A stretch of 64,000 nucleotides of DNA, from NCBI GenBank assembly GCA_001784175.1, contig MFPR01000044.1, forward strand, positions 1 to 64,000. The letters are read 5' to 3'. The notes under the pieces were generated by a model. It saw nothing but the letters and a program-made list of their open reading frames with translations. It was not told the DNA's origin and did not search any database. The position numbers and the translations under genes are program-made. How positions within the stretch are numbered: position 1 is the stretch's first letter; each line of letters starts with the position of its first letter. Below are positions 12,651-52,762 of the stretch, one piece after another. This DNA is from Candidatus Lindowbacteria bacterium RIFCSPLOWO2_12_FULL_62_27. Its GTDB lineage: Bacteria; Lindowbacteria; 2-12-FULL-62-27.

Positions 12651-12658
12651 CGAGCGAT

Positions 12659-14389: not shown

Positions 14390-14429
14390 CGGAAACCCCC
14401 TCAAGGAGCGGCGGGAGTCTGTCGGCTGT

Positions 14430-22375: not shown

Positions 22376-24787
22376 ATGATGTCAAGAAATCATTTGATGC
22401 TCATCGCCGCCGTCCTACTGGCGCCTGTGGCCGCCGCCGGCCAGACGGACGATGCTTTGATCAACGAGATTCAGCGCAAGGCGCTCGATTATTTTCTGGA
22501 GCTGCAGCATCCCCAGACGGGACTCATCTTGGACCGCGCGAATAATTTCACGCCAACGGAGTGGTCCTACGCGCCCGCGAGCACCGCCACCGCCGGATTT
22601 GGCCTTACGGCCTACGTCGTGGGCGCGGACCGCGGATGGATCACGCGCGAGGAGGCGTACGCGCGTAGTTTGAAGGCCCTCCGGTTTTACCGGGACCGCG
22701 CCGAAGTCCACTGGGGATTTTACTATCACTTCGTCGACGCGCGGGATGGCGCGCGGATGTGGAACTCGGAAGTCTCGACCATCGACACCGTTCTGTTTCT
22801 GGCGGGCGCGCTGACGGCGGCGGAATATTTCAAGGGCACCGAGGTCGACACGCTGGCGCGCGAATTGTACGAGCGCGTCGACTGGCCGGCGCTCTTGTCC
22901 GCCGACAAGCGGCTCATCAGCATGGGGTGGAATCCGGAGCGGGGGCTGCTTGCGTCGAGCTGGGACAGCTACGCGGAACTTCTGATCCTGTATCTCATGG
23001 CCATCGGATCGCCGACGCGTCCGGTTCCCGCCGACCTCTGGGACAACTGGCGGCGGCCGGTGGGCGAGTACGACGGCCACATCTCGATTGCGATCGGGCC
23101 GCTCTTCACGCACCAGTATTCTCACCTCTGGATCGATTTCCGGAACAAGCACGACCGGTACGCGGATTATTTCGAGAATTCCCGGCAGGCAACGCTCGCC
23201 AATCGCGCGTTTTGCGCGCGGAAAAAGAAATCGTACCGGACCTATGACGATGACGTGTGGGGGCTGACCGCGTGCGACGGGCCGGACGGATATCGCGCCT
23301 ACGGCGGGCCGCCGGCGCCGCCGATCCATGACGGGACCGTGGCGCCGACCGCGGCCGGCGGGTCGATCGTCTTTGCGCCGGACGAGGCGATTCAATGCAT
23401 GAAGACGATGAAGGAACGGCACGGCGGAAAACTCTGGGGAAAGTACGGCTTCTCGGACGCCTTCAACGTGGACCGCGACTGGTGGGACAAGGACGTGATC
23501 GGGATCGACCAGGGGGCGATGCTGCTCATGATCGAAAATTACAGGACCGGACTCATCTGGGAACTTTTCATGCGGCAGGACTGGGTGAAGCGCGCGATGG
23601 ACGCGGTGGGATTCAAGCCCGGAACGAAGCGCCTGACCGAGTCGGACGTGACGATGGCGCGGGCGAAATTCAAAGACCGGGAGGACCGGCCGCGTCTGGA
23701 GGCGCCTGCAGTGACGGCGATTCCCGCCGCCGACGGCAAGCTGGACGATTGGGCCACGCCAAAGTGGGTGGAGCTTCTGTATCCGGACGACGTTGAAACG
23801 GGCCGGAGGACTTCCGCGGCCGACCTGTCGGCGCGATTTTCCGTCTGCCGGACCGAAGAAGCGCTGGCGCTGGCCGTGCGAGTGACAGACAACGACATTC
23901 AAAACCCGCACCCGCAGACCGAACTGTATCGAGGCGATCTGGTCGAAGTGTACGTCGATCCTCAGTCGAACGGCCTGCAATGGGGCGACGCGCAGGAGTT
24001 TCAGATCGGCATCGCGCCGGCCGCCCGCGGCGCCGACAGGGACTCCGACTGGTACGCGTGGTTTCAAAACGGCCGGCCGGCCGGCATATCGGCCGGAGCC
24101 GCCGTCGATACGGACGGATACACGGCGGAGCTGGTGATGAACTGGCCCGCGCTAGGGTTGACGCCGGCGCCGCGGCGGATCGGATTTTCAGTCGGCGTCC
24201 ACGACGTGGACAGCGACACGACGCCGGACTGCAAGGTGCAATGGTTTTTCCTCGATCCAGGAATTCTTCTGGGCGAACTCATTCTCGAATCGTGGGACAG
24301 CGGCGTCCTCGCGGACTTCAATGCGCCGTCCGACCTGAAACGGCTCGGCCGGGATTTCGGCGACTGGAAAAGCGACCCGAACGACGGCGCGCAGGGCGTG
24401 AAGGTCGATTTTGCGGAAGGCCGGGACGGCGCGTGCCTGAGATTGCGGTACGATGTCGAATCAACGAAGCCGGCCTTCAACGGATTCTGGATGAAACTCG
24501 GCCGGTTCGACGCGTCGTCCTTCAACCAGTTCCTGTTCGACATCCGGGGAGACGAGACCGAGGGCATGCCGCGGCGGATCAAAGTCGAATTGAAAACCGC
24601 GGACCGGCAGGCGTCGACGTATGTGGAGGGCATCGGCCCCGAGTGGCGGACGGTGCGGCTGTCGAAGTCGGACTTTCCGGCGATCGGCGACTGGTCAGGT
24701 CTGACGGAGTTCGTGATCGTGTTCGAGGACAAGTCGGCCGGGGAAAAAACGGGCGTCATTTATCTGGATGACATTCGATTTAAATAG
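22376..24787 (+). CDS. GH144-like (glucoamylase-fold) enzyme with CBM9-like and CBM11-like modules
   Basis: 803 aa with signal peptide MMSRNHLMLIAAVLLAPVAA; an ATG at 22379 would remove one residue. Residues about 25-440 match the glycoamylase (alpha/alpha)6 family that includes GH144 endo-beta-1,2-glucanases: KALDYFLELQHPQTGLILDR, the tract WGFYYHFVDARDGARMWNSE, SSWDSYAELLILYLMA, and WWDKDVIGIDQGAMLLMIEN. Next is a CBM9/DOMON-like domain (about 455-640, with GDLVEVYVDPQSNG) and a C-terminal CBM11-like module (about 650-803). It is probably an extracellular or periplasmic beta-glucanase; the substrate linkage cannot be fixed by eye. It is divergently transcribed from the GH9-like gene and followed by palindromic repeats. 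Confidence 0.8.
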   Translation: MMSRNHLMLIAAVLLAPVAAAGQTDDALINEIQRKALDYFLELQHPQTGLILDRANNFTPTEWSYAPASTATAGFGLTAYVVGADRGWITREEAYARSLKALRFYRDRAEVHWGFYYHFVDARDGARMWNSEVSTIDTVLFLAGALTAAEYFKGTEVDTLARELYERVDWPALLSADKRLISMGWNPERGLLASSWDSYAELLILYLMAIGSPTRPVPADLWDNWRRPVGEYDGHISIAIGPLFTHQYSHLWIDFRNKHDRYADYFENSRQATLANRAFCARKKKSYRTYDDDVWGLTACDGPDGYRAYGGPPAPPIHDGTVAPTAAGGSIVFAPDEAIQCMKTMKERHGGKLWGKYGFSDAFNVDRDWWDKDVIGIDQGAMLLMIENYRTGLIWELFMRQDWVKRAMDAVGFKPGTKRLTESDVTMARAKFKDREDRPRLEAPAVTAIPAADGKLDDWATPKWVELLYPDDVETGRRTSAADLSARFSVCRTEEALALAVRVTDNDIQNPHPQTELYRGDLVEVYVDPQSNGLQWGDAQEFQIGIAPAARGADRDSDWYAWFQNGRPAGISAGAAVDTDGYTAELVMNWPALGLTPAPRRIGFSVGVHDVDSDTTPDCKVQWFFLDPGILLGELILESWDSGVLADFNAPSDLKRLGRDFGDWKSDPNDGAQGVKVDFAEGRDGACLRLRYDVESTKPAFNGFWMKLGRFDASSFNQFLFDIRGDETEGMPRRIKVELKTADRQASTYVEGIGPEWRTVRLSKSDFPAIGDWSGLTEFVIVFEDKSAGEKTGVIYLDDIRFK

Positions 24788-24795: not shown

Positions 24796-24905
24796 TCCCC
24801 CCTCTCCCGCCTCTGGCGGGAGAGGGATGGGGTGAGGGTGGCAATTTCCGGCGCCTAGGGACCCCCTCACCCTAGCCCTCTCCCCCTTCGGGGGAGAGGG
24901 GAAGA
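24796..24905. repeat. Inverted pair of REP-like palindromes (BIME-like)
   Basis: Two hairpins face each other. CCCTCTCCCGCC-TCT-GGCGGGAGAGGG (about 24800-24826) is followed by ATGGGGTGAGGGTG, and CCCTCACCCTAG leads into CCCTCTCCCCCTTCGGGGGA (24876-24900 overall). This is the classic arrangement of paired REPs between genes. It lies in the 171-bp gap between the GH144-like and GH116 genes and could stabilise mRNA ends or terminate transcription. Confidence 0.75.
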
Positions 24906-24958: not shown

Positions 24959-27178
24959 ATGGTTCAGTATGCGAATGAACGAGTCAAGTCCGGCGTGCCG
25001 CTCGGAGGGATCGGGACCGGCAAGGTCGAGGTCCTGCCAAACGGCGGGTTGTACGGCATCACGTTTCAGAACAACTGGAACGCGCCGCTGATCGGCCCGT
25101 TCGAAAATGCCCGGCGGCCCTATCAGGGTCTTTTGGGATTTCATTTCGGCGTTTTTGCACGTCTGTCCGGCCGGCGGACGGCGTTTTTGCTTCAGACGGA
25201 GAAAATCCGGAGTCTGCCGGCTGCGGACCGGATTCTCTACGACGGGCTCTGGCCCAAAGCCGAGTTGACGTATGAGAAACGCGGCGTGCCGGTCCGGGTG
25301 CGGCTGACGGCATACGGCACGGTGCGCGCCGGAGACGAAACCGGCAGCGCGGCGCCGGCGGCGCTGTTCCGCTTCACCGTCACGAACCGCGCAACCCGGG
25401 CCGCCGACGTGAGCCTGCTCGGCATGGTGCGGAACATGGTCGGCGCGGACGAGATCGGGCGGGTGAACCGGCTGGAGAAAACGCGAGACGGCGTGTCCGT
25501 CATCTGCGCGACGGCCAATCCATATCCGGGCGACGCAACGAGCGGCGAATATGCGCTCAGCGCGCCGATATCCGGCAAGGTCACGTGGATGCGGCAGTGG
25601 AACATGCAGACGACGAATTTCAGGTTTGATCCTGACACGATCGATCTTCGTGCATTTGAGGCGTTCCGAAAAACGGGCGATCTGCCCAACACCGAATACG
25701 GTGCCCGGGTCAGCGCCTCCGGCGCCCCAAGTGCCGGCGTCTCCGACGCCGGCCCGCAGCGCGGCGGCGGCGCGGCCTTCGGAGGCGCGCTGGCCGTCAG
25801 GAGAAAAATTCCGGCGGGCGCGACGCGCGTTTACGATTTCGTCCTCTCCTGGCATTACCCGATTCACCACGCCGGCCACCGGTACGAGCGACTGTTCAAA
25901 AGCGCGCGCGAGGCAGGCCTGTCGATCCTTCGGACGCGGGACCGGCTGGCCGAATCGTGCAGCCGCTGGCAGAAACCGATCCTGGAGTGCGGCCTGCCGG
26001 ACTGGCTGAAGGACGCGCTCTGGAACAATTTGTACGTGCTGACCAGCACGACGTGGTGGGACCGGAAAGGGAACTTTGCGTTCTATGAAGCGCCCGTGAT
26101 CTGCCCCCTCATGGGCACGCTCGACGTCCGGTACTACGCGACCGTTCCCTTTGTCCGAATGTTTCCGAACCTCGAGAAAAACGAGCTTCACCAGTTCGCG
26201 CTGGCCCAGAGGCCGGACGGATACATCCCGCACGACCTCGGCCGAAACCGGCTCGACAATCCGAACGACGGGACAACGCATTACCCGTGGAAGGACCTGA
26301 ACCCGAAATTTGTCCTGCAGGTATACCGGGACGTGCTGTGGCTCCGGGCCCGCGGGTTTTTGCGGCGCATGTATCCGTCGGCCAAGAAGGCGATGCTGTG
26401 GAGTTTCGGCACCGACAAAAACGGCGACGGCCTTCCGGACAACGAAGGCGCGGACCAGACCTATGACGTGTGGGAATTTTTCGGAACGAACTCTTACACG
26501 TCGTCGATTTTTCTCGCGTCGGTCCTCGCGTTTGAGAAATTGGCGGCACTGCAAGGCGACCGTGCGATGACGCGGGCCTGCCGGGCGCGGTTCGTCCAAG
26601 GGCGCGAGAGTTTCATCCGCCAGCTCTGGAACGGCAAGTATTTCGTTGCGGGCTGGAGCAAGGGCAAAGTCTACCCGGCCAGCATCGCGGGCCAGCTCAA
26701 CGGCCAGTGGTATGCGCACCTTCTGGGGCTTGGCCATCTCTTCCCCGCGCACATGGTGCGGTCGGCGGTTCGGGAAATTCTGCGATTGAACGGCCGGGAC
26801 TCAAAGTACGGCGTGACCAACAGCGTTTTTCCAAACGGCCGCCGGGATTTGTCCAACGCCCATGCCTCCGGGATATGGCCGGGCGAAAGCTATGCGGTGG
26901 CGGCGCTGGCGATTTATGAAGGGATGGAAACCGAAGGGTTGGCAATCGCGCGCAAGACGTGGGAGAACATGACGCGCGTTCAGCGCAATCCGTGGAACCA
27001 GCCCGACGTCGTGCACGCGGCGGACGGGACGTTCGGATTCGGCGATTACTACATGCGCAACATGGCCGTGTGGGCGGTAGCCGAAGCGCTGGCCGCGCGG
27101 CGGCCGGCTATCCGGAAGGCGCTGGACGCCGTCTATTCACCATCGTCCGCCTTGCCTCTCCCCGCAGTGGAGGTATAA
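24959..27178 (+). CDS. GH116 family beta-glucosidase
   Basis: 739 aa, no signal peptide, so cytoplasmic hydrolysis of beta-glucosides is likely. The N-terminal domain starts with VPLGGIGTGKVEVLPNGG, typical of GH116. In the (alpha/alpha)6 domain the likely nucleophile is Glu377 in FYEAPVICPLMGTLDVRYYA. The likely acid/base is an Asp in GADQTYDVWEFFG (Asp499 to Asp503), in line with the characterised bacterial GH116 enzyme. A good GGAGGCGA ribosome site precedes the ATG. Residues about 250-268 (SASGAPSAGVSDAGPQRGG) are encoded by a GC-rich repeat shared with 7970-8039 and probably form an inserted surface loop. It probably finishes oligosaccharides released by the upstream glucanases. Confidence 0.88.
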   Translation: MVQYANERVKSGVPLGGIGTGKVEVLPNGGLYGITFQNNWNAPLIGPFENARRPYQGLLGFHFGVFARLSGRRTAFLLQTEKIRSLPAADRILYDGLWPKAELTYEKRGVPVRVRLTAYGTVRAGDETGSAAPAALFRFTVTNRATRAADVSLLGMVRNMVGADEIGRVNRLEKTRDGVSVICATANPYPGDATSGEYALSAPISGKVTWMRQWNMQTTNFRFDPDTIDLRAFEAFRKTGDLPNTEYGARVSASGAPSAGVSDAGPQRGGGAAFGGALAVRRKIPAGATRVYDFVLSWHYPIHHAGHRYERLFKSAREAGLSILRTRDRLAESCSRWQKPILECGLPDWLKDALWNNLYVLTSTTWWDRKGNFAFYEAPVICPLMGTLDVRYYATVPFVRMFPNLEKNELHQFALAQRPDGYIPHDLGRNRLDNPNDGTTHYPWKDLNPKFVLQVYRDVLWLRARGFLRRMYPSAKKAMLWSFGTDKNGDGLPDNEGADQTYDVWEFFGTNSYTSSIFLASVLAFEKLAALQGDRAMTRACRARFVQGRESFIRQLWNGKYFVAGWSKGKVYPASIAGQLNGQWYAHLLGLGHLFPAHMVRSAVREILRLNGRDSKYGVTNSVFPNGRRDLSNAHASGIWPGESYAVAALAIYEGMETEGLAIARKTWENMTRVQRNPWNQPDVVHAADGTFGFGDYYMRNMAVWAVAEALAARRPAIRKALDAVYSPSSALPLPAVEV
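25706..25756. repeat. GC-rich palindromic repeat inserted in frame in the GH116 gene
   Basis: Shares the order GGGTCAGCGCCTCCGGCG, CCCCAAGTG, then a GCCGGCGTCTCCGACGCCGG palindrome with the copy at 7970-8039. It is read through in frame as small and polar residues (S, A, G, P, D). Confidence 0.55.
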
Positions 27179-27753: not shown

Positions 27754-29751
27754 ATGGCTTTCAGGGAGGGGAACCCTCCGCGGGGGAGCTGCCGGCTCGT
27801 CCCGCGGGTGTTGGCGGCGGTATTGGGGATGGCCGTGTTCGCCGGGGGTGGCGCCTTGGGCGCGATCATCGACAGCATGGACGACGCGACGGTGTGGAGT
27901 CAGAAGTCCGTCGACGGCGCGGCGACGCTGACGGTCAGCACGGTCACCGGGCAATCCGGGAACGCGGTCGAGGGCGCGTATGACCTGAAGACCGGTTCGT
28001 ACGTCCAGTTCGGCCGCAAGCTCGAGACGGTAGACATCAGTTCCGGGGACGCGATTACCTTCCTCTACAAAGGTTCCGGAAGCAAGAACAGCATCGAGGT
28101 GAAACTCCAGGACAGCGGCGGCGACTGGTTCGCCAAGACCATCGCGAACGTGTCCGACACGGCGGAATGGACGCGCGCCGTTCTCAGATACTCGGGAACC
28201 AGTCCCGATTTCACTTTTGCCTTCATGGAGGGATCGAGCGGCGACTCGGCGCTCAACACTCGCGCGATCAAGAAAATATCGATCGGCGTGACCAAGAGCG
28301 CCGGAGGGTCCGGCACCCTGCTCTTGGACGAGCTCGGCGTGTATCAGGTGGCGGCCGACACGACCCAGATTGTCTTCGACAACTTCAATGACACCACCAA
28401 AACCACGAACAATCTGGGAGCCAACCAGCGGCTTGTTTATGACGACGCCAGCACGAGTTCGTTTTCGTTTTCCTACGATACCGCAGCCAAGCCGTCCGAC
28501 GGCGACACCGCTTCCTTCAAAATCATCTTCACGAAGGGCGGGACGACCAAGAACGCCGCCTGGCTGCCTGCGTTTGCGGTGGTCGACACAACGAGTTCCT
28601 GCACCGAACTCGTTTTCGACCTCAAAGGCGATACCGGCGCCACGCTGGGCATCGGGCTGAAGGGCACCGACGCGCAAAACACCACGCAGGAGGACCTGGT
28701 CTACTTGAACTCCTACCTATTGGGTGGAGTGACCGATGCATGGACAAGAGTCCGGATTCCGCTTACCGCCTTTCCCAACGTTTCCTTCCGAACTAATTTT
28801 CAGATCTGGTTCGCGACCGAACTCAAGGACGGCGTCACCATTTCACTGCCGACCGCTGCGACGACAAGCGTCTGGATAGACAACCTGAAGATATTTCGCG
28901 TCCCGGTGCCGAACGCCGTCCTCCAGACGCTCGACAGTTTCGACGCGCCGGTGTCCGCGTCGGGCTGGAGCAAGGCCACCGGCGACGATGCGTCGCTCAG
29001 CTTTGAGCGCGCGACCGGACAGGTCGGCAAGGCGTACGAGCTTGCGTACGCGTTCAACAGCGGCACCTACGCGATCATTGAGCGGAAAATATCGATCAAT
29101 GTCCAGGAGGGCTCCGCGTTTTCGTTCCTGCTGAAGGGAACCGGCGGCGCGAACAACGTGGAGTTCAAGGTCAAAGACGGCGACGGCACGACGTACTACA
29201 AAGTCCTCACCGGCGCCGCGAGCACATCCGGCGCTTGGGCGACCTACACGATCCCCTACACGCAACTCAGCTTTTTCTCCGCCGGGACCGACAACTCGCT
29301 CAATCTCGGGGAAATCGCGCAAATCGATTTTGCGATCACCAAATCTTCCGGTCAGTCGACCGGCGGAACTTTGGCGGTGGATCTCCTGTCCTACGGCGCC
29401 GCGCCTTCGATCAGCGCGAACGTGGCGGCGGGAGGCGTGGTCGAAAATCTGACCGTCAAGGGAAATCCTGTCAGCCCCAACGGCGATGGGATCGACGACG
29501 AGGTGACTTTTCAGTTTACGCTGAAAGAATCCTCTGTCGTCACCCTGAACGTCTACGACCTGCGAGGGACGCTCGTTCGGCAGATCCCAGGCGGCACGCA
29601 GGCGGCGGGCCCGCAGACGCTGAACTGGGACGTGCGCGACCGCGCCGGCCGCGTCTGCCCCAACGGGCTTTGCGTGTTCCAGTTCGAAGCGCGCAGCGCG
29701 ACGAGCGGCGGCCGGTCGGACATCCGGAACATCATCGCGGTCGTCCGATGA
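27754..29751 (+). CDS. Secreted protein with three CBM-like modules and a FlgD-Ig/gliding-type C-terminus
   Basis: 665 aa with an N-terminal signal (hydrophobic VLAAVLGMAVFAGGGALGA). Three beta-sandwich modules of about 160 aa follow (about 37-200, 208-385, 392-550). Two carry the motif GSGSKNSIEVKLQDSGGDW or TGGANNVEFKVKDGDGTTYY. The C-terminal domain (about 560-665) contains NPVSPNGDGIDDEVTFQFTL, LNVYDLRGTLVR and a WDVRDRAGR turn, the FlgD-like Ig fold used as a sorting or anchoring domain in many diderms. There is no catalytic domain. Its stop overlaps the start of a PorV-like gene (ATGA), the first of three cargo/PorV couples in the window. It probably binds polysaccharide at the cell surface. 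Confidence 0.72.
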   Translation: MAFREGNPPRGSCRLVPRVLAAVLGMAVFAGGGALGAIIDSMDDATVWSQKSVDGAATLTVSTVTGQSGNAVEGAYDLKTGSYVQFGRKLETVDISSGDAITFLYKGSGSKNSIEVKLQDSGGDWFAKTIANVSDTAEWTRAVLRYSGTSPDFTFAFMEGSSGDSALNTRAIKKISIGVTKSAGGSGTLLLDELGVYQVAADTTQIVFDNFNDTTKTTNNLGANQRLVYDDASTSSFSFSYDTAAKPSDGDTASFKIIFTKGGTTKNAAWLPAFAVVDTTSSCTELVFDLKGDTGATLGIGLKGTDAQNTTQEDLVYLNSYLLGGVTDAWTRVRIPLTAFPNVSFRTNFQIWFATELKDGVTISLPTAATTSVWIDNLKIFRVPVPNAVLQTLDSFDAPVSASGWSKATGDDASLSFERATGQVGKAYELAYAFNSGTYAIIERKISINVQEGSAFSFLLKGTGGANNVEFKVKDGDGTTYYKVLTGAASTSGAWATYTIPYTQLSFFSAGTDNSLNLGEIAQIDFAITKSSGQSTGGTLAVDLLSYGAAPSISANVAAGGVVENLTVKGNPVSPNGDGIDDEVTFQFTLKESSVVTLNVYDLRGTLVRQIPGGTQAAGPQTLNWDVRDRAGRVCPNGLCVFQFEARSATSGGRSDIRNIIAVVR

Positions 29752-30620
29752 AGAGACATTTGGGATTTTGGATTTTAATTCTGTGCGGCCTTCCGGGGGC
29801 AGCCTCGGCGGCGGCGTTTGAGGCCATGATGGTGGGGGCGCGGCCAGTCGGGATGGGCGGGGCGTTTGTGGCCGTGGCCGATGACGGGCTGGCGGCGCAC
29901 TACAATCCGGCCGGACTGGCCAACCTCAAGATGCGCCGGATCGACTCCGCCTACAGCGACCTCTACAATCTCGGGCTGTTGAAACGAAACTACATGTCCT
30001 ATGCGCATCCCAAACTTGGCCGGGCCGGCGCGGCCATCAGTTGGAATGGGCTCGCGACGTCGCAGAAGGTCACGTTCATCGATTATTCCGAGAACGCGTA
30101 TGGATTTTCCGTCGGATTCCCCGTGTACCGCGGGCTCGCCGTCGGATCGACGCTTAAATATTACTGGGTGAACTACGACAAAAAGGCCACCGGATACGGA
30201 TTCGACCTTGGCGTCATGCTCCGCTTCATGATGGACTACCGGTTCGGCGTGATGCTCCGAAACGCCAGCCATCCGAAAATCCGCTGGGCCACCGGCGCCA
30301 TCGATTACCTGCCGATCACGTGGGAAATGGGTCTCGCCGCCGACGTCGGCCGGCACACGCTGGTGTCCATCCAGTGGGACCGGCAGGCCGACAACAACGA
30401 CCGGTCGCTCTTCAGGGTCGGCGGGGAATACTGGCTCACCGAGCGGCGCGCCAGCACGCGACTGGGCGTCCGGGCGGGCGCCGTGAGGCACCCGATGAAC
30501 AAGTGGGCCTTCACCGGCGGGCTGAGCGCGGTCCTCAAGGGATTCGAAGCCGTCTATGGGCTGCAGTTCCACTACAACCTCGACGAAGAACACACGTTCT
30601 CGCTGAACTGGGCGTTCTGA
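29748..30620 (+). CDS. PorV/PorQ-family outer-membrane beta-barrel (copy 1)
   Basis: 290 aa. Signal peptide MKRHLGFWILILCGLPGAAS is partly encoded by a GGATTTT-type repeat. The mature N-terminus holds the family hallmark MMVGARPVGMGGAFVAVADD then HYNPAGLANL. Alternating strands follow and the protein ends in Phe (FSLNWAF), as barrel proteins do. PorV-like proteins help type IX systems deliver or process cargo with C-terminal sorting domains; other relatives resemble FadL/UPF0164 proteins. The start ATG overlaps the upstream TGA. It is more divergent from the other two copies than they are from each other. Confidence 0.8.
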   Translation: MKRHLGFWILILCGLPGAASAAAFEAMMVGARPVGMGGAFVAVADDGLAAHYNPAGLANLKMRRIDSAYSDLYNLGLLKRNYMSYAHPKLGRAGAAISWNGLATSQKVTFIDYSENAYGFSVGFPVYRGLAVGSTLKYYWVNYDKKATGYGFDLGVMLRFMMDYRFGVMLRNASHPKIRWATGAIDYLPITWEMGLAADVGRHTLVSIQWDRQADNNDRSLFRVGGEYWLTERRASTRLGVRAGAVRHPMNKWAFTGGLSAVLKGFEAVYGLQFHYNLDEEHTFSLNWAF

Positions 30621-30623: not shown

Positions 30624-33600
30624 ATGGAGATTTTGGATTTTGGATTTTGGATTTTGGATTGGACACAGCGACGACTCCGAATCGGCTGTCTCGGATTTGC
30701 AGTCCTCATTGCGTGGGCCGCTCCAGTCGCCGGAGAATTTCTTCCGGTCGATGATTTCAATGACGCGAACGACCGGAACGACGCCGGCGGATATTCGTTT
30801 GTCCTGACCGACGGGCAGGCGGGGTCGGCGATAGCCATCGAATATGTTTCGGATCCCGCAGTCCGATACGGGCCGGCGGGATACAGCCTGAAGCTGACGT
30901 TTGAGATCAACACCTACAACGGATGGTGCGCGTGGGCCGCCGATCTGAACGGGCTGAACGCCGCGCCGTTTGACGCGCTCCGGTTTCGCCTGCACGGATC
31001 GCACAGCCGCGCGGAATCGTTCACGGTCCTTTTGCGGGATCGCAAAGGCAACCGGATATCAATCCGGACGTCCGACCATCTCTCGGCCGACGGCAATGGC
31101 TGGCGGGACCTGGATCTGCCGCTGGACAGGGGACAGGAATTTGACTGGAGCGACCTCGACACGCTGATGTTGATCCTTGATCGGGAGAATCTTTTTCCCG
31201 GCGTTCCGGGCGCGCTCCTGATCGATGACATCCGGTTTGAGAAGATTGCGCGTGAGGTGGCGCCGGCACGCGCGCCGGAACCATCGCCGCCGGCGCCCGC
31301 GCCGCCGCCGGCAGCCACACCGACGCCAAAACCTCCGGCGCCGATTCTTGCCGGGCCGGCGCCAAGCCTCAAGACGCCGGCGCAAACGACTCACCTCCTC
31401 TCCCCCCGCGAAGGGCGAGAGAGGACTGAGGTGAGGGGGGTAGACAGCGACACGCAAGGCTTGCCACCCTCACCCCAACCCTCTCCCGCCAGAGGCGGGA
31501 GAGGGGGGACGCCGCCGGTGGACACGAAGCCAGCTCCCATCCTGACGAAACCGAAGGCCGGCGGAGCGATTCCGCCGCTGATCGTGGCGCGGCCGGCGCC
31601 GCCGGAAACAAAACCGGCGCCGATCCTGACAAAACCAGCCGCACGCGGCGCCATCCCTCCATTGATTCTGACGAAACCTGCGCCGGTCTTGACCAAACAG
31701 CCCGCGCCCACACCTGCGGACAAGGGATACCTGACGTACGACGCCATGGAGAATCCCAAAGACTGGGCGACCGAATCCGATCAGGGCGCGAGCCTCCAGC
31801 TCAAACCGGTGCCCGGCGTCAAAGGCCAAGCGCTCTCTCTGACCTACTCCTTCGGCAAGGGCGGCTGGGTGCAGATGTCCAAACCGTCAAAGGCGGACCT
31901 GAGCCGCATGGAAGCCTTGAGGCTCCGGGTCAGAGTCGTCAAAGGAACCGTCAACTTGGAGATCAAGCTGACGGACGAAGACTTCTCGAACTTCGGGAAA
32001 AAATACGAGGCCCTCAAGCCCGAAAACGAGTGGGCCACGATTGACATCCCCATCGAGCAGTTCACATACTGGTGGGGTGGAGACAGCAAGCTTGACATGA
32101 AAACCATCCGGGGCGTTTACATCGCCGTCAGTAAAGTGTCCGGCAACGCCGGCGAGATTCTCGTTGATGACATCGAGTATAAATCGCGCGCGCCGACGGC
32201 CGCCGAAGTTCCCGGCGGGCTCGTCCTCATCGACAGTTTCGAACGCAGCGTTCCCGAAAACGCCTACTCAGTCCTGCGCGGCGACAACTCGGTCCTGAAC
32301 CTCGAGTCGGTCCGCGACGCACACGATGGCAACTATTCGATGCGTTTCGATTACACGCTCGAAACCACGCGGAGCATTCCGACCCACGTCGGCGCGTCCA
32401 GCGCATTCGCGACGACGCTGGACTGGCGCGGCGTGGACCGGTTCAACCTCTGGGTCCGGGGTGACGGCTCGTCCAACCACCTGCGGATCAACCTCGTCGA
32501 CCGCGACGAGGAAGTGTGGAGCGCCGTCCACCGGCACGTTTTGAAATCAAGCCAGTGGCAGCTCGTGTCGATCCCGATTGCCGACTTCAATATCCCGGGT
32601 GACGCGCCGGCGCGAAACAAGAGATTCGACGTCGACGAGATCAACAAGATCGAGATCCAGATCGTGGGCGACCGGACCGACAAGACGACCGGCACGGTGT
32701 GGGTCGACGAGATGTACGTAACCGGCAAAAACCTCGATCCCAACAAGGTCGGCCCGGCGGAGCTCCGCAAGGGCCTGGTGGTTCCCCTGCCGGCCCTGGC
32801 CGCCGCCTTCAACTTCGGGATCGTCAACTTCGCGGAATTCTCCGACGTTCCGGAAGAGGGCCAGAAGGTGAACCACTATGGGAAAATCCTGATGGACGCG
32901 CAGTTCTCGAAGTTCTCGACCCGTCTCGAAATCGCCTCCGATTTCCAGGACTACGGCGCGTCGGCCTATTTCGACACCAAGGGCACCCTGAGCCTCGAAA
33001 ACCCGAGGACCGTTCTCGTCAACAGCCAGATCAACGTCAGCCAGATCCACCCGAACCTGCGCCTCCTGACGCTCGGATACCTCTGGATCGATTTCGGACG
33101 CTGGACCTTCACGCCGCAGTTCGGAAGCAAGGGCCTCAAGGCGGAAGGATCGATCGGAGACGCGGGATACGAAGCGTTTGTGATCAAGAAACGCTACGAG
33201 TCCTACGCGGCCGGGTCGCGCGTGACCCTGACGCTCGGGCCGTGGCTCCTGCAGTCCATCTTCGTTTACGACAACGACGTCGCCCAGCAGACCGGCGCCA
33301 CGCTCGTCGGCGGGCAACTCGTGAGTTCCAGCTCCAAACTGGTGACGCGTCCGATTTCGAAGGATTTCGTCGGAACCCTCGAAGTCACGCGGAAGCTGAG
33401 CAAGGACCGGATCACGCTCTCGGCGCTCCTCGGACGCAATCTCAACACGCAGTTCGGGACCAAGACCGGCACCTTCAGCCCGACCGTCGTCTCGCTCTAC
33501 GACAGCCCGCGGAACAAATCGGGAAACCTCGGAATATTCGAGGCGCGGTTGAACGATTACCCGTGGAAAAAACTCTCGTCGCAGGTCCAGTACCGCTGGA

Positions 33601-34172
33601 TCGGGACGCACTTCAAGCCCAATTTCCGGGAAGCCGGCCTGTCGTTTGACGACGCGTGGGCGGACCAGCAAGGCTACAACCTGCGGTTTCTCCAATCGAT
33701 CTGGAAGATGAATTTCGCCGGAGAATACGACCGGATCGACCGTCTATCGGCCACGCACTACAACCGGCGCCGGTCGAGGCTGACGTGCGGCTACTATGGA
33801 ATCCGCAACGTGGATATCGCCGTTTCGGGCGAGCAGTTCGCGGAGGTCTACAAATTTTCGAGCGACCGAACGGCCTTTTCAACAGACAAGAACGAGAAGA
33901 AATTCAGCGCCGAAGCCTATGTGGGCCTGCGGGTGTCGGACAAACTCAGGACCTGGGCCAAGGCGATCGAGGAACGAATCACGCATCCCGGAAACAACAA
34001 CGCCAAATACAAGACTGACATCTTCCAGACCCGCTTCGAATACTTCGTCTCCAACAACTCGCGCATCTTCGCCGAATACAAATTCACCCAGTTCGGCAAC
34101 CCCGCCTGGGAGCCGATCGGCTCGCCCTTCGACGACAATTTCACCAAACTAAGCGTGGAGCTGAATTTCTAG
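30624..34172 (+). CDS. Outer-membrane beta-barrel protein with N-terminal CBM modules
   Basis: 1182 aa. Signal peptide (about 1-38), first ligand-binding-type module (about 40-212), a Pro/Lys-rich linker (about 213-365), a CBM11-like module (about 368-525, with VNLEIKLTDEDFSNFG and FTYWWGGDSKLD) and a third module (about 534-705). Residues about 710-1182 are alternating amphipathic strands with frequent Tyr/Phe/Trp, ending LSVELNF with a terminal Phe, as expected of an outer-membrane barrel. The modules would lie on one face of the membrane, tethered by the linker. The first codons are encoded by a heptamer repeat, and REP-like palindromes (31390-31506) encode part of the linker. A role in capturing glycan at a pore is plausible but not shown. 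Confidence 0.7.
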   Translation: MEILDFGFWILDWTQRRLRIGCLGFAVLIAWAAPVAGEFLPVDDFNDANDRNDAGGYSFVLTDGQAGSAIAIEYVSDPAVRYGPAGYSLKLTFEINTYNGWCAWAADLNGLNAAPFDALRFRLHGSHSRAESFTVLLRDRKGNRISIRTSDHLSADGNGWRDLDLPLDRGQEFDWSDLDTLMLILDRENLFPGVPGALLIDDIRFEKIAREVAPARAPEPSPPAPAPPPAATPTPKPPAPILAGPAPSLKTPAQTTHLLSPREGRERTEVRGVDSDTQGLPPSPQPSPARGGRGGTPPVDTKPAPILTKPKAGGAIPPLIVARPAPPETKPAPILTKPAARGAIPPLILTKPAPVLTKQPAPTPADKGYLTYDAMENPKDWATESDQGASLQLKPVPGVKGQALSLTYSFGKGGWVQMSKPSKADLSRMEALRLRVRVVKGTVNLEIKLTDEDFSNFGKKYEALKPENEWATIDIPIEQFTYWWGGDSKLDMKTIRGVYIAVSKVSGNAGEILVDDIEYKSRAPTAAEVPGGLVLIDSFERSVPENAYSVLRGDNSVLNLESVRDAHDGNYSMRFDYTLETTRSIPTHVGASSAFATTLDWRGVDRFNLWVRGDGSSNHLRINLVDRDEEVWSAVHRHVLKSSQWQLVSIPIADFNIPGDAPARNKRFDVDEINKIEIQIVGDRTDKTTGTVWVDEMYVTGKNLDPNKVGPAELRKGLVVPLPALAAAFNFGIVNFAEFSDVPEEGQKVNHYGKILMDAQFSKFSTRLEIASDFQDYGASAYFDTKGTLSLENPRTVLVNSQINVSQIHPNLRLLTLGYLWIDFGRWTFTPQFGSKGLKAEGSIGDAGYEAFVIKKRYESYAAGSRVTLTLGPWLLQSIFVYDNDVAQQTGATLVGGQLVSSSSKLVTRPISKDFVGTLEVTRKLSKDRITLSALLGRNLNTQFGTKTGTFSPTVVSLYDSPRNKSGNLGIFEARLNDYPWKKLSSQVQYRWIGTHFKPNFREAGLSFDDAWADQQGYNLRFLQSIWKMNFAGEYDRIDRLSATHYNRRRSRLTCGYYGIRNVDIAVSGEQFAEVYKFSSDRTAFSTDKNEKKFSAEAYVGLRVSDKLRTWAKAIEERITHPGNNNAKYKTDIFQTRFEYFVSNNSRIFAEYKFTQFGNPAWEPIGSPFDDNFTKLSVELNF
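30631..30660. repeat. GGATTTT heptanucleotide tandem repeat at a gene start
   Basis: Four tandem copies of a 7-bp TTTTGGA unit begin 7 bp after the ATG at 30624 and encode ILDFGFWILDW at the protein N-terminus. A shorter related run (TTTGGGATTTTGGATTTT, about 29760-29777) lies at the same place in the preceding PorV-like gene. Confidence 0.8.
31390..31506. repeat. Pair of REP-like palindromes inside a coding sequence
   Basis: Two CTCTCCC...GGGAGAG hairpins with CTCACC/GGTGAG arms lie within the open frame of the CBM/barrel gene. They encode LLSPREGRERTEVRG and later PPSPQPSPARGGRGG in the proline-rich linker (residues about 256-294). They belong to the same family as the repeats at 24796, 43823 and 50638. 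Confidence 0.8.
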
Positions 34173-34173: not shown

Positions 34174-37100
34174 ATGGGCGGCAGGCCGGCTCTATATAAT
34201 ATTTGTATATATATAATAGTGATTTCGGTTCTGAGCCCGGGCGTGTCCCGTGCAGACATTGTACATGACGATTTTAACGACAGTTCCACCAGCAACGACT
34301 GGGGCGGCAGCACCGGGACTTTTACGGGCAGCGGCGGGACCATCAGCATCAATCGAATCTCGTCCGATGCGTCCGAAGGCGCGCGGTCGCTGGAGATGCA
34401 ATTCGATGTGACGGCATCCTCCGCCTACAGCGGCTACTACAGCCGCCTGAACGACACCAACCTGTTCACCGACACGGCCAACAACCGGGCGGTGTCGTTT
34501 TTCGTCAAGGGGCTGGCCGGCCACGAGGTGTTCAAGATAGAGGTCGGCGAGTCCGATGCACTGTCCCAGAAAACCCTGGTCCGGGATTTTATCAACGGCG
34601 GCGTCACCACCGCCTGGCGGCAGGTCTACATCCCGATGATGGCGTACGACCAGTTGAATTTCAACGATTCCCGCTGGACCGGCAACCTGGCGTTCGTGTT
34701 TGAGGATGGGCTTGGATCGCCGAAATCGGGAACGATCCGGATCGACAGCATCCAGATCGTCAAGACACCCGATACATACCTCGTCGATACCTACGACGAC
34801 GGCGATACGCAGAAAAGTTCGTTCGGCGGGACCAACACGTTTTATGAAAATCAGACGGAAATGAACGCCCAGCGCGATACGTCGACGTTCGTCGGCGACA
34901 CGGGCGCCTCCTTGCGCATCGCCTACACCTGCACGGGCACGTCGTCCGGAAATTACACGGTGTACGAGCAGACCGTCAACAACGGGCTCGGCAAGGGCCA
35001 GGACGTGCGGTTCGCGACTTCGCTGCACTTCTGGATCCGCGCCGACACCGGCCTGCGCGGTCCCCTGGCCAACGTGTGGCTCATCGACATGGGCAACGGA
35101 TCCAACCAGAAGGACATCGAGTCGTTCGTTCCCGCCATCCCGATCGACACGTGGGTTCCAGTCAACATTCCGATCCGCGTATTTTCCGGGGTCGACACGC
35201 CGTCGCTCAAAATGATCAAGTGGGCGTGGGAATACGAGGACAAGAGCGGGACCATGTGGCTGGACGCCGTGGAATTTTCGAAGGGGTATGACCTTTCCGT
35301 GCCGGCGGCCCCGGCGCTGTCGAAGCCGGCGGCCGACACAGTCATGCAGGAAACCACACCGGCGTTCTCATGGAACAGCGTGTCGGACGGGCAGGGGGTG
35401 TCGTATTTCATTCAGGTAACGGCATACGAGGACACCGATTTTTCCGACCCGATTCTTCGTGAGGTCACCAGCGCGACGAGCCTGACGTTCGCGCAGGCGC
35501 TGGCGAATGGCGGCCGGTATCGGTGGCGGGTCGCGGCCTTTGACGGGCACGGAAACTGGAGCATCTTCAGCGACAGCCGCGCGTTCAAAATCCAGTCGGC
35601 CACGCATGACGATTTCAACGACAGCGCCACTACCAACAAATGGGGAGGCGCCGCCGGCATTTTTACCGGAGGCGCCGGGGCGATCACCATCAACCGCACG
35701 TCGGCCGACGCGGCCGAGGGCGCACGGTCGCTTGAAATCGCGTACACCGCCACCGGCGCGAGCGGAGATTATTCGGGCTATTACAGCGAGCTGAACAACA
35801 TGAACGTGACCGACACGCCGAGAAACAGGGCGCTGTCGTTCACGATCAAGGGACTGGCGGGCAACGAAGTGTTCAAGGTCGAGCTGGGTGAGTCGACGGT
35901 GAAGACCCAGCAGGTGGCCGTCCGCGATTTTCTGAACGGAGGCGTGTCGACCGCCTGGAGGGACATCCACATTCCTCTTTCGGCGTTCGACCAGTTGAAT
36001 TTCACCAACCCGTGGTGGAACCGCAACCTCGCGTTTGTGTTTGAATACGACTTGGGAACGCCGAGGTCCGGAACCGTACGGATCGACAACATCCGGCTGA
36101 CCTCCGAGCCGGAGACGTACCTCGTGGACTCCTATGACGACGCCGACACGTCCAAATCGTCCTTCGGCGGGACCATGGTCTACTATGAGAACAATGCCGA
36201 CCTGAATGCCCAGCGCGACACGAGCACCTACGTCGGAGACACGGGCGCATCCCTGCGCATCTTCTACAACGTGACAGGCGCGGGATCGGGCAACTACGTC
36301 GTCATCGAGCAAACCGTCAACAACGGCGTCAACAAGGGCCAGGACATCCGGCACATGTCGTCGCTCCATTTCTGGGTCAAGGCCGATTCCGGCACGCGCG
36401 GGCCGCCCGCCAACGTCTGGATGCACGACATGGGCAACGCGTCCAGCCAGAAGGATCTCGAGGCGTATATCCCGGCCCTTCCAACCGACACGTGGGTTCC
36501 GGTCAACATTCCGCTGCGTGCGTTTTCCGGCGTCGATAGCGCGTCGCTGAAGATGATCAAATGGGCGTGGGAGTACGAAGACAAGAGCGGCACGATGTGG
36601 ATCGACGCGGTCGAATTTTCCAAAGGATACGATGTCACGGCGCCCAACACTCCTGTTTTGTCCGGAGTGTATCCCGACTCGACACCGACCTTTTCGTGGA
36701 CGGGAGGGAATGACGCGCAGGGAGAGAGTTATTACATCCAAGTCGCCGCTTTCTCCGATACAAAATTTGAGAACGTCATCCTGAGTTCAGTGACCGGCGC
36801 CGCCAGCATCACGTTCACGCAAACGCTGTCCGCCGGGAGCCGCTATCACTGGCGGGTTGCGGCCTTTGACCGGCACGGCAACTGGACCGGATTCAGCGAC
36901 ACGAAAAGTTTCGTGGTGTTTGAGGACACCGGCCGAAGCACGGTGTTCGTGTCCGATCGCGGGGACAGCTCGAACGTCGGATCGGCGGACACGAGGGGGG
37001 CGTTCGGCGGGATATTTGAGGCGATCTCATATCTGGATCCCGCGAACGGCGCGGACACGGTCGTGATCTTCAACCGGATCGGATCGGACTCGTACCGGCT

Positions 37101-40100
37101 GACGGCCGCGGTCGTGCCGGACAGCGGAATGACGATGTTGAGCTTCCGAGAATGGAACCGCCGCGTCAACGGCCAGAATACCGACACCGGCGGCGGCACC
37201 GACACTTACGCAAGGCTGGCCTCCAGCGCCGATACCGCACTCCTGTTCATTCCCAACATCGACAACGTCACCATCGCTGGGCTCATCCTTGACGGCGAAA
37301 GCACGGCCGGTTCCTCCAAGGCCGGCGTCCTCCTCTCCAACTCCCGCTCGGACTCCATCAGCCTCGTCCACATCTACCGCGCCAACACCGGTATCCGCCT
37401 CGCCGCGTCCCTGAACAACGCCATCGCCGCCTGCATCCTCACAGGCAACGACAGCGCCTCCGTCTCCCTCCAAACAGGGGCGAGCAACAACACCGTCGGC
37501 GGCAACTCGGTCCGGGGCGGGGGATTTGGGATACACGTCAGCGGGGATCAAAACGTCATCGTGGACAACACGGTCTACGGGGCTGCGCGGGCCGGCCTGT
37601 ACCTCGACAGCGGGACGGCGAACCGTGTGCAGGGCAACCGCATCCAAAACGGCGGATCGTACGGCGTGATGCTCTCGAACTCGGCGCAGGGCAATTACGC
37701 CGCGCTGAACGAGATCGACTCAACGGCGGGCGCGGCGATCTACATCGGATCGAGCGGGACGAACCACACGGACACGTTCGAGGCGAACAACATCACGAAC
37801 TGCACGACGGCGGTGATCAACGAGGAGGCCGCGACGTTTGACCTGCGATACAACTGGTGGGGGAGCCGGGACGAAGACGCGGTGACGGACAGCGCGATGA
37901 ACACGGGCGGCGGGGGGCTGTTGGTTGTGCCGCTGTCGCTGCACGTGATCGACACGTCGGCGGGCGCGGACACGCTGTCGCCGGATTCGACGAAGATCAG
38001 CGCCGACTCGACGGTGACGACGTCAAGCGTGACGATCACGTGGGACACGGTGTCGGTCGACCGGGACTCGACGGCGCTCGGGGGTCTGGCGGGATATCAT
38101 GTGTACCGCCGCACTTCGGCCGGGACGAACTGGTTCGAGAGCCTCATCGACACCGTACTCGCCGGCGGCGGAACCGACACGCGGTACACGGACTCCTCTG
38201 CGAGCGTCAACAACACGTACTATTACCGGGTGACGGCATTTGACTCGCACTACACAGGCGGCCGGCTCTTCCTCAATGAAAGCTGGTTCTCCGACACGCG
38301 GATCATCAGCACACCGGAGACCACGGTGTCGCTTGCGATTGTGATCACCTCCCCGGCGCCGGGCGATACGGTCGGCCTGACGAAAGGCATCACCTACTAC
38401 CTGCCCAAGAATCCTTCGAATTACGACACGGTCGTCCTCGCGCAGTTTTCGCCGGACAGCGGCGCCAACTGGTACACCATTCTGAAACGGAGTGGAGACA
38501 CCCAGAACCTTCTGGCGGACGCGGACGGCGAAACCTATACGCTCACTTGGAACGTCTACTCGAGCCTCTTCGACACTTCCATCGCCGGCCGGGTTCAAAT
38601 CCGGATGGCGGCGACCAGCGGGTCGGACACCGTATGGGACACAGTCACGGATTTCAACGTCAACACCGTGATCGACAGCGGCGGTATGACCGTATTTGTG
38701 TCCAACGGCGGTGATTCGTCCTATCCTTACGCCGCCGACACGGACGGAGGATTGCCCGACATCGGTGTCGCGTTTGGGCTTTTGACTCCAGCAAATGGCG
38801 CCGACACGGTGGTGATCTTCAACCGGATCGGATCGGACTCCTACCGGCTGACGGCCGCGGTCGTGCCGGACAGCGGAATGACGATTCTCGGATTTCGCGA
38901 ATGGAACCGCCGCGTCAACGGCCAGAACACCGACACCGGCGGCGGAATCGACACCTACGCTACGCTCGCCTCAAGCGCCGATACCGCGATCGTGTTCATC
39001 CCCAACATCGACAACGTCACGATCGCAGGACTCATCCTCGACGGCGAAAGCGCCGCCGGTTCCGCCAGGGCCGGTATCCTCCTCTCCAACTCCCGCTCGG
39101 ACTCCATCAGCCTCGTCCACATCTACCGCGCCAACACCGGTATCCGCCTCGCCGCGTCCCTGAACAACGCCATCGCCGCCAACATCCTCGCCGGCAACGA
39201 CAGCGCCGGCGCCTCCATCCAGGCCGGGTCGAGCAACAACACCGTCCGCGGCAACTCGGTCTGGAGCGGAGGACTCGGCATCCACGTCGGAGGAGATCAA
39301 AACATCATCGTGGACAACACGGTCTACGGGACCGCCCGGGCCGGCCTGTACCTCGACAGCGGGGCGGCGAACCGCGTGCAGGGCAACCGCGTCCAGAACG
39401 GCGGGTCGTACGGGATGATGCTGTCGAACTCGGCGCAGGGCAATTACGCCGCGCTGAACGAGATCGACTCGACGGCGGGCGCGGCGATCTACATCGGATC
39501 GAGCGGGACGAACCACACGGACACGTTCGAGGCGAACAACATCACGAACTGCACGACGGCGGTGATCAACGAGGAGGCCGCGACGTTCGACCTGCGATAC
39601 AACTGGTGGGGGAGCCGGGACGAAGACGCGGTGACGGACAGCGCGGTGAACACGGGCGGCGGCGGCCTCTTGGTCCTGCCGCTGTCGCTGTGGGTGATTG
39701 ACACGTCGGCGGGCGCGGACACGGTGTCGCCGGATTCGACGAAGATCAGCGTGGACTCGACGGTGACGACGACCGGCATAACGATCACGTGGGACACGGT
39801 GTCGGTCGACCGGGACTCGACGGCGCTCGGGGGTCTGACGGGATATCATGTGTACCGCCGGACGGGCGCGGGGACGAACTGGTACGAGAGCCTCATCGAC
39901 ACCGTACTCGCCGGCGGCGGAACTGACACAAAATATGCGGACACGGGCTTGAATCCGAGCGCCACTTACTATTATCGCGTGACGGCATTCGACTCGCACT
40001 ACACGGGCGGGCGGCTCTTCCTCAACGAAAGCTGGTTCTCCGACACCCGCGCCGTCACAACGTCAACACCGTCGACATCCGATACGAATGTCCACGACCA

Positions 40101-42864: not shown

Positions 42865-43775
42865 AAAAGGAGATGTTCCTGCTATCGCTCCTCATGTTCT
42901 GCCCGACGCTCCGCGCATGGGCCGACTCGCCCGGATCGACCGGCGCGGAGTTTTTGAAAGTCGGCGTGGGCGCGCGCGCGATGGCGCTCGGAGGTTCGCA
43001 CGCGGCGCTTGCGAGTGACGTCTACAGCCTCTACTGGAATCCGGCGGGGCTTGCGCGGATCGAGCGAGCCGAAGCGGCCGTTCAGGTCAACAGCTACATT
43101 TCGGACATCGAACAGCATTTCCTGGCCGGCGCGTACCGGCACAAAAAGTATGGAACATTTGGCGCAAGCCTGAACCTCCTGGGCGTCGACGGAATCCCGC
43201 GGACCACCGTCGCCGCCAACGGCGCCGTCACCACCAGCGGCACGTTCGGCGCGGATGACCTTGCCTTTACCGCCGCATTCGCCCGGCCCATCACCGGATG
43301 GCTCTCGGCCGGCGGGGCGGCGAAGTGGATTCGATCGACCATCGCCCACTATCACGCCAACGCCTCCGCGGCCGATCTGGGACTTCAGGTGAAGCCGCTG
43401 TCCTTCCTCTCGCTCGGACTCGCGCTGCAGAACATCGGCACGCGGATCAAGTTCATGTCCGACCGCGACGAGCTTCCGATGCTCTATCGGTTCGGCGCCG
43501 CCGGCGAATTCCTCGACAACCGTGCGCTCGTCGTGACGATGGACCTGTCCCAGGCGAGAAACGACGTCGCGACCTTCGGGCTCGGCGTCGAATACACGCT
43601 GCGGCGAATCCTCTCTCTCCGGCTCGGCTACACGACGGCCGGCGCCGAAGTCGACCGCGGCCTCACTGCCGGTTTCGGCGTCCGCTTCCGATCTCTGAAT
43701 CTCGAGTACGCCTTCATCCCCTTCGGCGCCCTCGGCGACGCGCACCGGTACAGTTTGAAATACGCGTTCTATTGA
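42861..43775 (+). CDS. PorV/PorQ-family outer-membrane beta-barrel (copy 2)
   Basis: 304 aa. Signal peptide ends near RAWADS. The mature start GSTGAEFLKVGVGARAMALG, then SDVYSLYWNPAGLA, is the family signature. About fourteen amphipathic strands follow, ending in an aromatic residue (SLKYAFY). It resembles copy 3 (57818-58735) over its length, for example LRLGYTTAGAEVDRGLTAGF against LRLGYTLENKDADDGLTAGV. The start overlaps the stop of the 2896-aa surface protein (ATGA), suggesting a dedicated export or anchoring partner. Confidence 0.85.
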   Translation: MKKEMFLLSLLMFCPTLRAWADSPGSTGAEFLKVGVGARAMALGGSHAALASDVYSLYWNPAGLARIERAEAAVQVNSYISDIEQHFLAGAYRHKKYGTFGASLNLLGVDGIPRTTVAANGAVTTSGTFGADDLAFTAAFARPITGWLSAGGAAKWIRSTIAHYHANASAADLGLQVKPLSFLSLGLALQNIGTRIKFMSDRDELPMLYRFGAAGEFLDNRALVVTMDLSQARNDVATFGLGVEYTLRRILSLRLGYTTAGAEVDRGLTAGFGVRFRSLNLEYAFIPFGALGDAHRYSLKYAFY

Positions 43776-43822: not shown

Positions 43823-43868
43823 CCCCCTCTCCCGCCCCCGGCGGGAGAGGGCCGGGGTGAGGGTGGCC
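43823..43868. repeat. REP-like palindrome
   Basis: CCCTCTCCCGCC-CCC-GGCGGGAGAGGG followed by CCGGGGTGAGGGTGGCC, just 3' of the PorV-like gene. It could act as the transcript end of the surface operon. Apart from this and the boxes at 43893-43928 the 160-bp gap shows no gene. Confidence 0.75.
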
Positions 43869-45003: not shown

Positions 45004-45174
45004 ATTGACAATTCTGACCGGAGGACTGGCATTTTCCGGTTCGGCCATGTATGCTGTAAGCGTTTTCAGCAGGCGTTGGTAAAATTAGGTTTGACGCGCG
45101 ACCGGCGCAGAGTCACAATCGGGCCCGGATCTGACGGACGGATGGTTCTCATCTCTCTTGTCGAGGGGTTGATT

Positions 45175-47409: not shown

Positions 47410-47413
47410 GATC

Positions 47414-48265
47414 ATGAAGGAAGAAACACGGGAACGCGTCGAAATGCGGTTTCGAACGATTTCGCTCTTTGTGTTTGTGATCTTCGCCACCGCCATCACC
47501 CTGATGCCCTTCGCATGGATGATTTCGACGTCGTTCAAGCCGGAAGACAAGATTCTCACCAAAACGCCCGATCTGATCCCCGCCCTCGATGTTTTCACCG
47601 ATACGCACTATGTGAAACTCTTCGACCAGGTCAACTTCATGGGTCATTTCTTCAACAGCCTCATCGTCACCCTCGGCGTGACCTTCTTCAGCCTCGCCGT
47701 CAACGCCGCGGCCGCGTACGCGTTCGCCAAACTGCACTTCCCGAAAAAGGAGCGGCTCTTTGCGCTCCTCCTCATCACCATGATGATCCCGATGCAGGTC
47801 ACGATGATTCCGAGTTTCATCATCCTGAAATACCTCGGGCTTCTCAACAGCTACGCCGGCCTCATCATCCCGGGCGGCGCCAGCGTCTACGGGATTTTTC
47901 TCCTCAGACAATTCATGATGTCCATTCCCAATTCCCTCCTCGAAGCCGCGCGGATCGACGGATGCGGCGAGTGGACGATTTTCTGGAGAATTGTCCTGCC
48001 GCTCTGCCGGCCCGTCCTCGCGACGCTCACGATCTTCACGTTCATCGGCGCATGGAACGATTTCCTCGGGCCGCTCATCATCCTCCTTGAAGAATCCAAG
48101 TACACGCTCCCCGTGGCCCTTGCGACCCTCAACGGCCAGTACGGCACCGAATGGGGACTCTTGATGGCCGGCAGCGTCATCGTCGTGGTGCCGGTCGTCA
48201 TCGTGTTCCTTTTGGTCCAGCGGCATTACATCAAGGGCCTCATGGTCGGGGGTGTCAAGGGATGA
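47414..48265 (+). CDS. MalG/UgpE-type sugar ABC permease
   Basis: 283 aa with six hydrophobic helices and an EAA loop EAARIDGCGEWTIFWRIVLP that contacts the ATPase. The N-terminal AWMISTSFKPEDKI is typical of the family. It starts 4 bp after the fused MalF gene, and its TGA overlaps the ATG of the glycosidase gene (ATGA). It forms the second half of the transmembrane channel. Sugar specificity cannot be read from the sequence; context suggests glucan or galactoside oligosaccharides. Confidence 0.9.
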   Translation: MKEETRERVEMRFRTISLFVFVIFATAITLMPFAWMISTSFKPEDKILTKTPDLIPALDVFTDTHYVKLFDQVNFMGHFFNSLIVTLGVTFFSLAVNAAAAYAFAKLHFPKKERLFALLLITMMIPMQVTMIPSFIILKYLGLLNSYAGLIIPGGASVYGIFLLRQFMMSIPNSLLEAARIDGCGEWTIFWRIVLPLCRPVLATLTIFTFIGAWNDFLGPLIILLEESKYTLPVALATLNGQYGTEWGLLMAGSVIVVVPVVIVFLLVQRHYIKGLMVGGVKG

Positions 48266-52732: not shown

Positions 52733-52762
52733 AGGAATCACATTCTTGAACGGGGGTGCGGC

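Follow-up and report, generated by a model that had tools for sequence, protein, structure and literature searches.

Analysis of a 64,000-nucleotide stretch of DNA (the window; contig C44 of G000, the 4.39 Mb draft of a Candidatus Lindowbacteria-related metagenome-assembled genome) identifies a conserved cassette in which three genes follow one another in fixed order: one for a secreted protein with three carbohydrate-binding modules (CBMs) and an FlgD_ig-type tail (CBMx3-FlgD_ig), one for a PorV-like barrel protein (PorV1), and one for a single chain, here termed CBM-barrel, that joins CBM-type sandwiches to a probable outer-membrane (OM) barrel. We find the ordered triplet in five genomes from two phyla (in one, G209, it is cut by the contig end), and this conserved cassette, overlooked by an initial annotation of the DNA, is a stronger result than the CBM-barrel fusion itself. 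The best explanation, to which we assign a probability of about 0.5, is an OM glucan-uptake complex of non-SusCD type whose binding domains lie beneath the barrel. A fuller version, in which candidate phyla would take up glucan, probably β-1,2-glucan, independently of TonB and SusCD, through PorV-anchored multi-CBM capture outside the cell and an uncharacterized barrel with periplasmic CBMs, is put forward tentatively.

The genes of the cassette and those around it are:

22379..24787, + strand: GH144-type (PF10091) glucanase with CBM9_1 and a C-terminal N-domain relative (family and PDB matches)
24959..27178, + strand: GH116 glycosidase (Pfam), no evident signal peptide
27754..29751, + strand: secreted protein with three CBM11/CBM30 domains and a FlgD_ig/CHU_C-type tail (domain matches)
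29748..30620, + strand: PorV1, the PorV-like barrel companion (NF033709 9e-14, 51.8 bits, below the curated cut-off of 90)
30624..34172, + strand: CBM-barrel gene, 1182 residues, signal peptide at about residues 13–37
34174..42864, + strand: giant secreted protein of 2896 residues with CBM30, β-helix, fn3 and a tail like those of the type IX secretion system (T9SS) (domain matches)
42861..43775, + strand: PorV2, a second PorV-family barrel (NF033709 185.5 bits, above the cut-off of 90)

From 27754 onward each of these genes overlaps the next or lies no more than a few bases from it, as an operon. The closest relative carrying a CBM-barrel gene, 'Candidatus Lindowbacteria bacterium nzgw232' (JAHFCY01; G001), retains GH116, CBMx3-FlgD_ig, PorV1 and CBM-barrel in locus L013. 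The triplet is likewise retained in L074 (G339) and L075 (G387), there preceded by a gene joining an N-domain to an OmpA domain; a PF10091 glycosidase lies downstream of the CBM-barrel gene in L074, the L075 contig stops within that gene, and in G209 the CBM protein and PorV1 are followed by an N-domain, where the contig ends. Sequence identity between the phyla extends over the whole unit: the CBMx3-FlgD_ig proteins of the window and L074 are collinear (32% identity, E 1e-89), PorV1 is about 31% identical, and the glycosidases of the two loci are 46% identical over 412 residues. The PorV1 orthologue of L074 reaches 38.4 bits against Pfam PorV (cut-off 27). PorV proteins as such are widespread, occurring in 194 of 386 genomes, and among 30 PorV-type loci fetched CBM neighbours were found solely at close relatives of PorV1. 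Within the giant protein (34174–42864) the β-helix/fn3 halves are duplicated and the CBM30 domains repeated.

When a profile of the barrel region was run against the 386 sampled genomes, it matched only the G001 orthologue, then a 729-residue protein of G339, then the contig-end copy in G387. Identity to G001 over the barrel region is 58–67%. G339 belongs to another, distant phylum, and its protein matches with E 1.1e-74 over profile positions 31–484 (about 31% identity), with the layout signal peptide, one N-domain, short linker, barrel. The domain order for which the initial annotation had suggested a profile search is thus retained in part, as N-domain plus barrel with one N-domain, and since this pairing is kept in G339 the architecture is ancient or transferred, but rare. 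Weak matches to a biotin carboxylase-like protein (G012) and an oxidoreductase-like protein (G316) and a marginal one of 39 positions (G018) were treated as chance, and scans of viral contigs found no relatives.

The CBM-barrel open reading frame (ORF) is uninterrupted over its 1182 codons and ends ...TKLSVELNF, in keeping with the frame at 30624–34172 and final Phe first annotated. Its first 12 residues derive from a (GGATTTT)n repeat (window 30628–30660, at the start codon), so that the real start codon may lie slightly 3' of the annotated one. Other ORFs (L077, at 12681 and 18365) likewise begin with an ILDFGFWILD-type peptide. The G001 orthologue is broken across two contigs (L013 7263–9911 and L012 1–977) whose overlapping ends are near-identical. 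The chain is divided as follows:

30735..31247, + strand: N-domain, residues 38–208, a CIA30/CBM30-like sandwich that aligns with the N-domains of L013, L074, L017 and L016
31248..31718, + strand: Pro-rich linker, residues 209–365 (from the sequence)
31380..31530, + strand: interspersed DNA repeat within the linker, core about 125 bp, read in frame
31719..32195, + strand: CBM11 domain, residues 366–524, with the FTYWWGGD motif (Pfam and fold match)
32196..32729, + strand: third sandwich, residues 525–702, CBM11/CIA30-like (Pfam and fold match)
32820..34169, + strand: probable OM barrel, about residues 733–1182, without family match and conserved in relatives

Three β-sandwich domains of ligand-binding type, as originally proposed, are supported by Pfam, fold matching and the alignment of relatives. 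CBM11 and CBM30 are textbook families, and the full chain matches CBM_11 with 60.3 bits (cut-off 27; 3.2e-16) and CIA30 with 50.7 bits (cut-off 24). Searched alone, segment 366–523 gives CBM_11 6e-7 and CIA30 1.7e-5, and segment 524–701 gives CBM_11 2.1e-8 and CIA30 2.2e-7. In an AlphaFold model of residues 366–1182 the mean predicted local distance difference test score (pLDDT) is about 87–95 for residues 376–515 and about 48–85 for 516–705; VIA-align superposes the predicted model from residue 366 onward on the mixed-linkage glucan complex of CtCBM11 (6r3m; Z 19.0, root-mean-square deviation 3.2, 159 residues aligned) and residues 531–703 on NDUFAF1/CIA30 (7zkq; Z 17.5). The middle sandwich, which also contains the motif FTYWWGGDSKLD, is accordingly the one that the initial annotation had called clearly CBM11-like. 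The CBM11-like domain of G001 retains FTYWWGGD, and several related CBMs encoded in the window have it in the form FxY[FW]WGG. The N-domain gave no Pfam match when its region (31–227) was searched alone, and its hmmsearch value of 5.6e-65 is a match by construction, the hidden Markov model (HMM) having contained the N-domain itself; its alignments place it, as a divergent member, in the superfamily of the CBM11/CIA30 sandwiches.

The N-terminal sandwiches may bind glucan, although one point weighs against this and against any firm sugar specificity: residues 366–524 share fold and Pfam family with CtCBM11 (1v0a, 6r3m) but only 18% identity, and of the residues that we take to be its ligand contacts most are not conserved by alignment, only Tyr129 seeming to be kept (phmmer). 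Within the linker, residues ~253–302 correspond to an interspersed repeat of which the G000 genome has about 40 copies, some of them within open frames (in the window also at 24796–24899 and near 43842–43865 and 50655–50678). As it has no equivalent in the linker of the G001 orthologue, the repeat-derived part is probably recent and dispensable.

The C-terminal ~450 residues probably form an OM barrel. We base this on three features, namely a terminal aromatic β-signal, a high aromatic content and the strict placement of the gene beside one for a PorV-like barrel. In particular, the C-terminal β-signal with final aromatic residue by which OM barrels are recognized is present: the last strand, TKLSVELNF, is hydrophobic at positions −1/−3/−5/−7, ends in Phe, and is conserved, as TRLSAELNF and TRIALEVMF, in relatives with as little as about 31% identity. 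Aromatics make up 14.0% of the region, against 14.3% in a PorV control and 9.1–9.4% in soluble β controls. Several results weigh against a barrel. The region matches no Pfam family to E 10 and no NCBIfam family, its sequence has no meaningful counterpart in the PDB, and hhalign detected no similarity to DUF5916, PorV or the 817-residue neighbour in C40; neither an amphipathicity count, nor a home-made barrel HMM, nor alignment-averaged alternation separates it from soluble β controls. Moreover, two AlphaFold runs did not yield a confident model of the barrel: residues 700–1182 alone (AlphaFold2; three sequences, two genomes) gave a pLDDT of 27, and in the 366–1182 model (817 residues, CBM paralogues added) the CBMs were good while the barrel region stayed below 50, mostly 22–46, with an alignment depth over this region of 2–3 sequences in both runs, which is too shallow. 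The prediction for 700–1182, which the initial annotation had proposed as a check, was thus uninformative, showing neither a closed barrel nor a soluble sandwich or solenoid, and of its claim that the last ~470 residues are an OM barrel ending in Phe, the Phe end stands and the barrel is a probable fold. Foldseek matches to SprA (8gl8, 6h3i) were dropped (template-modelling score 0.06–0.14). That the last 450 residues are instead a soluble β domain of a non-membrane protein would fit the lack of structural proof in the AlphaFold runs and a hydrophobic alternation no higher than in soluble controls; considering that the aromatic terminal β-signal is retained across phyla, that aromatics reach 14% and that the gene strictly adjoins a PorV-like barrel gene, we regard this as unlikely.

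Soluble N-terminal parts of OM barrels are normally periplasmic, and two independent relatives of the N-domain point the same way. In G339 an N-domain-family (CIA30/CBM11-like) domain is joined to an OmpA domain of the peptidoglycan-binding type (2.9e-19; L074 6694–7716, the first cassette gene) and is 36% identical to the N-domain of that genome's own CBM-barrel. Additionally, in both Lindowbacteria genomes a CBM30-type copy interrupts a PorV-family barrel between strands 2 and 3, the strands being assigned by eye (L017 1198–2643, G000:C40; L016 829–2388, G001:C253; PorV_fam 126–134 bits, CBM30 8e-8), with a CBM-FlgD_ig gene adjoining. In barrels of the FadL type the chain makes its first periplasmic turn after strand 2, and the OmpA domain is periplasmic. 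On these analogies the CBM and N-domains of CBM-barrel most likely lie on the periplasmic side.

Surface display of the CBMs is thus not the default reading, and a reading of glycan capture at the surface is doubtful. A single chain that binds glycan and spans the OM, as first annotated, holds in so far as CBM modules and a conserved, probably all-β C-terminus share one chain; the barrel fold is probable, and capture at the surface does not follow, since a module placed N-terminal to a barrel faces the periplasm by default. A surface-capture porin, with the CBMs outside and one chain doing the work of SusC and SusD, could arise if the barrel had an odd number of strands, if the chain were threaded through it or if export were autotransporter-like. 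The middle CBM shares 36–37% identity with those of nearby proteins that are probably secreted, a GH9 enzyme among them, and secreted enzymes commonly have Pro-rich linkers, both of which would suit such a porin. Default topology opposes it, as do the relatives of the N-domain that are joined to OmpA or lie in the PorV turn and the absence of an autotransporter family match (PF03797 was looked for), and we consider it rather unlikely. Periplasmic binding domains under a barrel are also the layout of polysaccharide export ports (PgaA, BcsC, AlgE/AlgK), and the placement suggested by the OmpA- and PorV-borne relatives would suit an export port whose product, a glucan, is trimmed by the glycoside hydrolases. 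Given that no glycan synthase was found among the window genes scanned and that the genes nearby encode degradative enzymes and an importer, export seems very improbable.

With uptake as the preferred reading, we infer a transport role along the following lines. The secreted CBMx3-FlgD_ig protein would capture glucan at the cell surface, held there by PorV1; the GH144-type glucanase and the GH116 glycosidase would cleave the captured glucan; CBM-barrel would serve as the entry port for the oligosaccharides, its periplasmic sandwiches retaining the sugar as it emerges from the inner mouth and handing it on to periplasmic steps; and the ATP-binding cassette (ABC) importer encoded at 45076–53872, where substrate-binding protein–permease genes for sugar are found, would take it in. 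What the data show of this scheme is the domains other than the barrel, the operon and its conservation; barrel fold, topology, transport role and substrate are inferences from these. In the importer region SBP_bac_1 and BPD_transp_1 are fused in one 777-residue ORF (45076–47409), and a separate permease gene follows.

The leading, though not the sole, candidate substrate is β-1,2-glucan. The GH144-type enzyme of the window matches PF10091 with 264.7 bits (cut-off 27), 5gzh with E 3.2e-51 and XCC2207 with E 4.9e-74, which suggests an endo-β-1,2-glucanase; 5gzh (CpSGL, itself an endo-β-1,2-glucanase) and XCC2207 are members of the SGL clan (PMC12102758). The catalytic family of the linked enzyme is that of GH144 β-1,2-glucanases in both phyla, whereas the window enzyme differs in its added CBM9_1 and N-domain relative, the latter 44% identical to the OmpA-fused copy of G339. 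Against this substrate stands the presence in the window of GH9 and GH35-like enzymes as well, for which reason it may not be β-1,2-glucan. The latter, a GH35/exo-β-glucosaminidase-like enzyme, is encoded at 48151–50673 beside the sugar ABC genes; a GH35-family enzyme within a β-1,2-glucanase gene cluster of Ignavibacterium has been described (PMC8861115).

PorV-like proteins adjoining proteins with T9SS-like tails, with PorV2 above cut-off, recall PorV/PorQ (NF033709) and type IX secretion, from which the locus departs in that PorV1 is under cut-off and SprA weakly matched; no counterpart of CBM-barrel among T9SS components is known to us. Rather than a port, CBM-barrel and PorV1 could nevertheless form a type-IX-like surface-attachment site for CBMx3-FlgD_ig and the giant protein, with the sandwiches acting as protein-contact domains, as in the assembly factor NDUFAF1/CIA30. 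T9SS-like cargo flanked by two PorV-like proteins, SprA-like ORFs in G000 and G001 and a third sandwich nearest to CIA30 favour such a site, but the SprA-like match is weak and far under cut-off (TIGR04189 against the G000 ORF, 68.9 bits over 316 residues, cut-off 200), the sorting-tail match falls just short (21.8 bits, cut-off 23), and the GH144 linkage and CBM11 fold speak for sugar, so that we judge it improbable. An 1825-residue SprA-like ORF on G000:C20 (L113 1308–6785, − strand; end ...TAELRF) may indicate a distant type IX translocon in Lindowbacteria. A third PorV-family protein lies at window 57818–58735 (− strand), next to a protein (58732–63999, − strand) that has 12 or more Big_13 Ig-like repeats and whose frame continues up to the edge of the window. 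Elsewhere, window 5020–7515 encodes a Dpy19-like (C-mannosyltransferase-type) protein with tetratricopeptide repeats, and several tetratricopeptide-repeat proteins lie at 7964–14560.

CBM-barrel-like fusions are already known as an architecture from the CBM9_1–DUF5916 proteins (PF06452 and PF19313), which occur widely and whose C-terminal region is regarded as an OM barrel. Common to both are the signal peptide, the N-terminal CBM-like domain, the long C-terminal region and the single chain; CBM-barrel differs in its CBM family, has no PF19313 match and aligns with an hhalign probability of 0.1%. Of 60 sampled genomes 14 have DUF5916, and of four that were scanned for CBM9_1 two gave a match; no DUF5916 fusions were found in the three Lindowbacteria genomes. 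The locus shares with SusC/SusD a binder, a channel and glycosidases in an OM glycan-uptake layout, but its binding modules are fused to the channel or carried by the FlgD_ig-tailed protein. The difference from the separate SusC/SusD arrangement, to which the initial annotation had drawn attention, is upheld in that no TonB-dependent receptor or SusD family was matched in the CBM-barrel or cassette proteins scanned, TonB/SusC not having been searched genome-wide.

The literature that we searched, most subscription papers being beyond reach, gave no description of the barrel family, the ordered triplet or a likely periplasmic use of CBMs, and the barrel family, cassette and topology appear to be undescribed there. 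Finally, the passage of glycans through the OM is poorly known in bacteria that lack SusCD, and the cassette offers a concrete, testable candidate for it. It further suggests that CBM-like domains could serve the periplasmic side of OM barrels, a placement seldom considered for CBMs.

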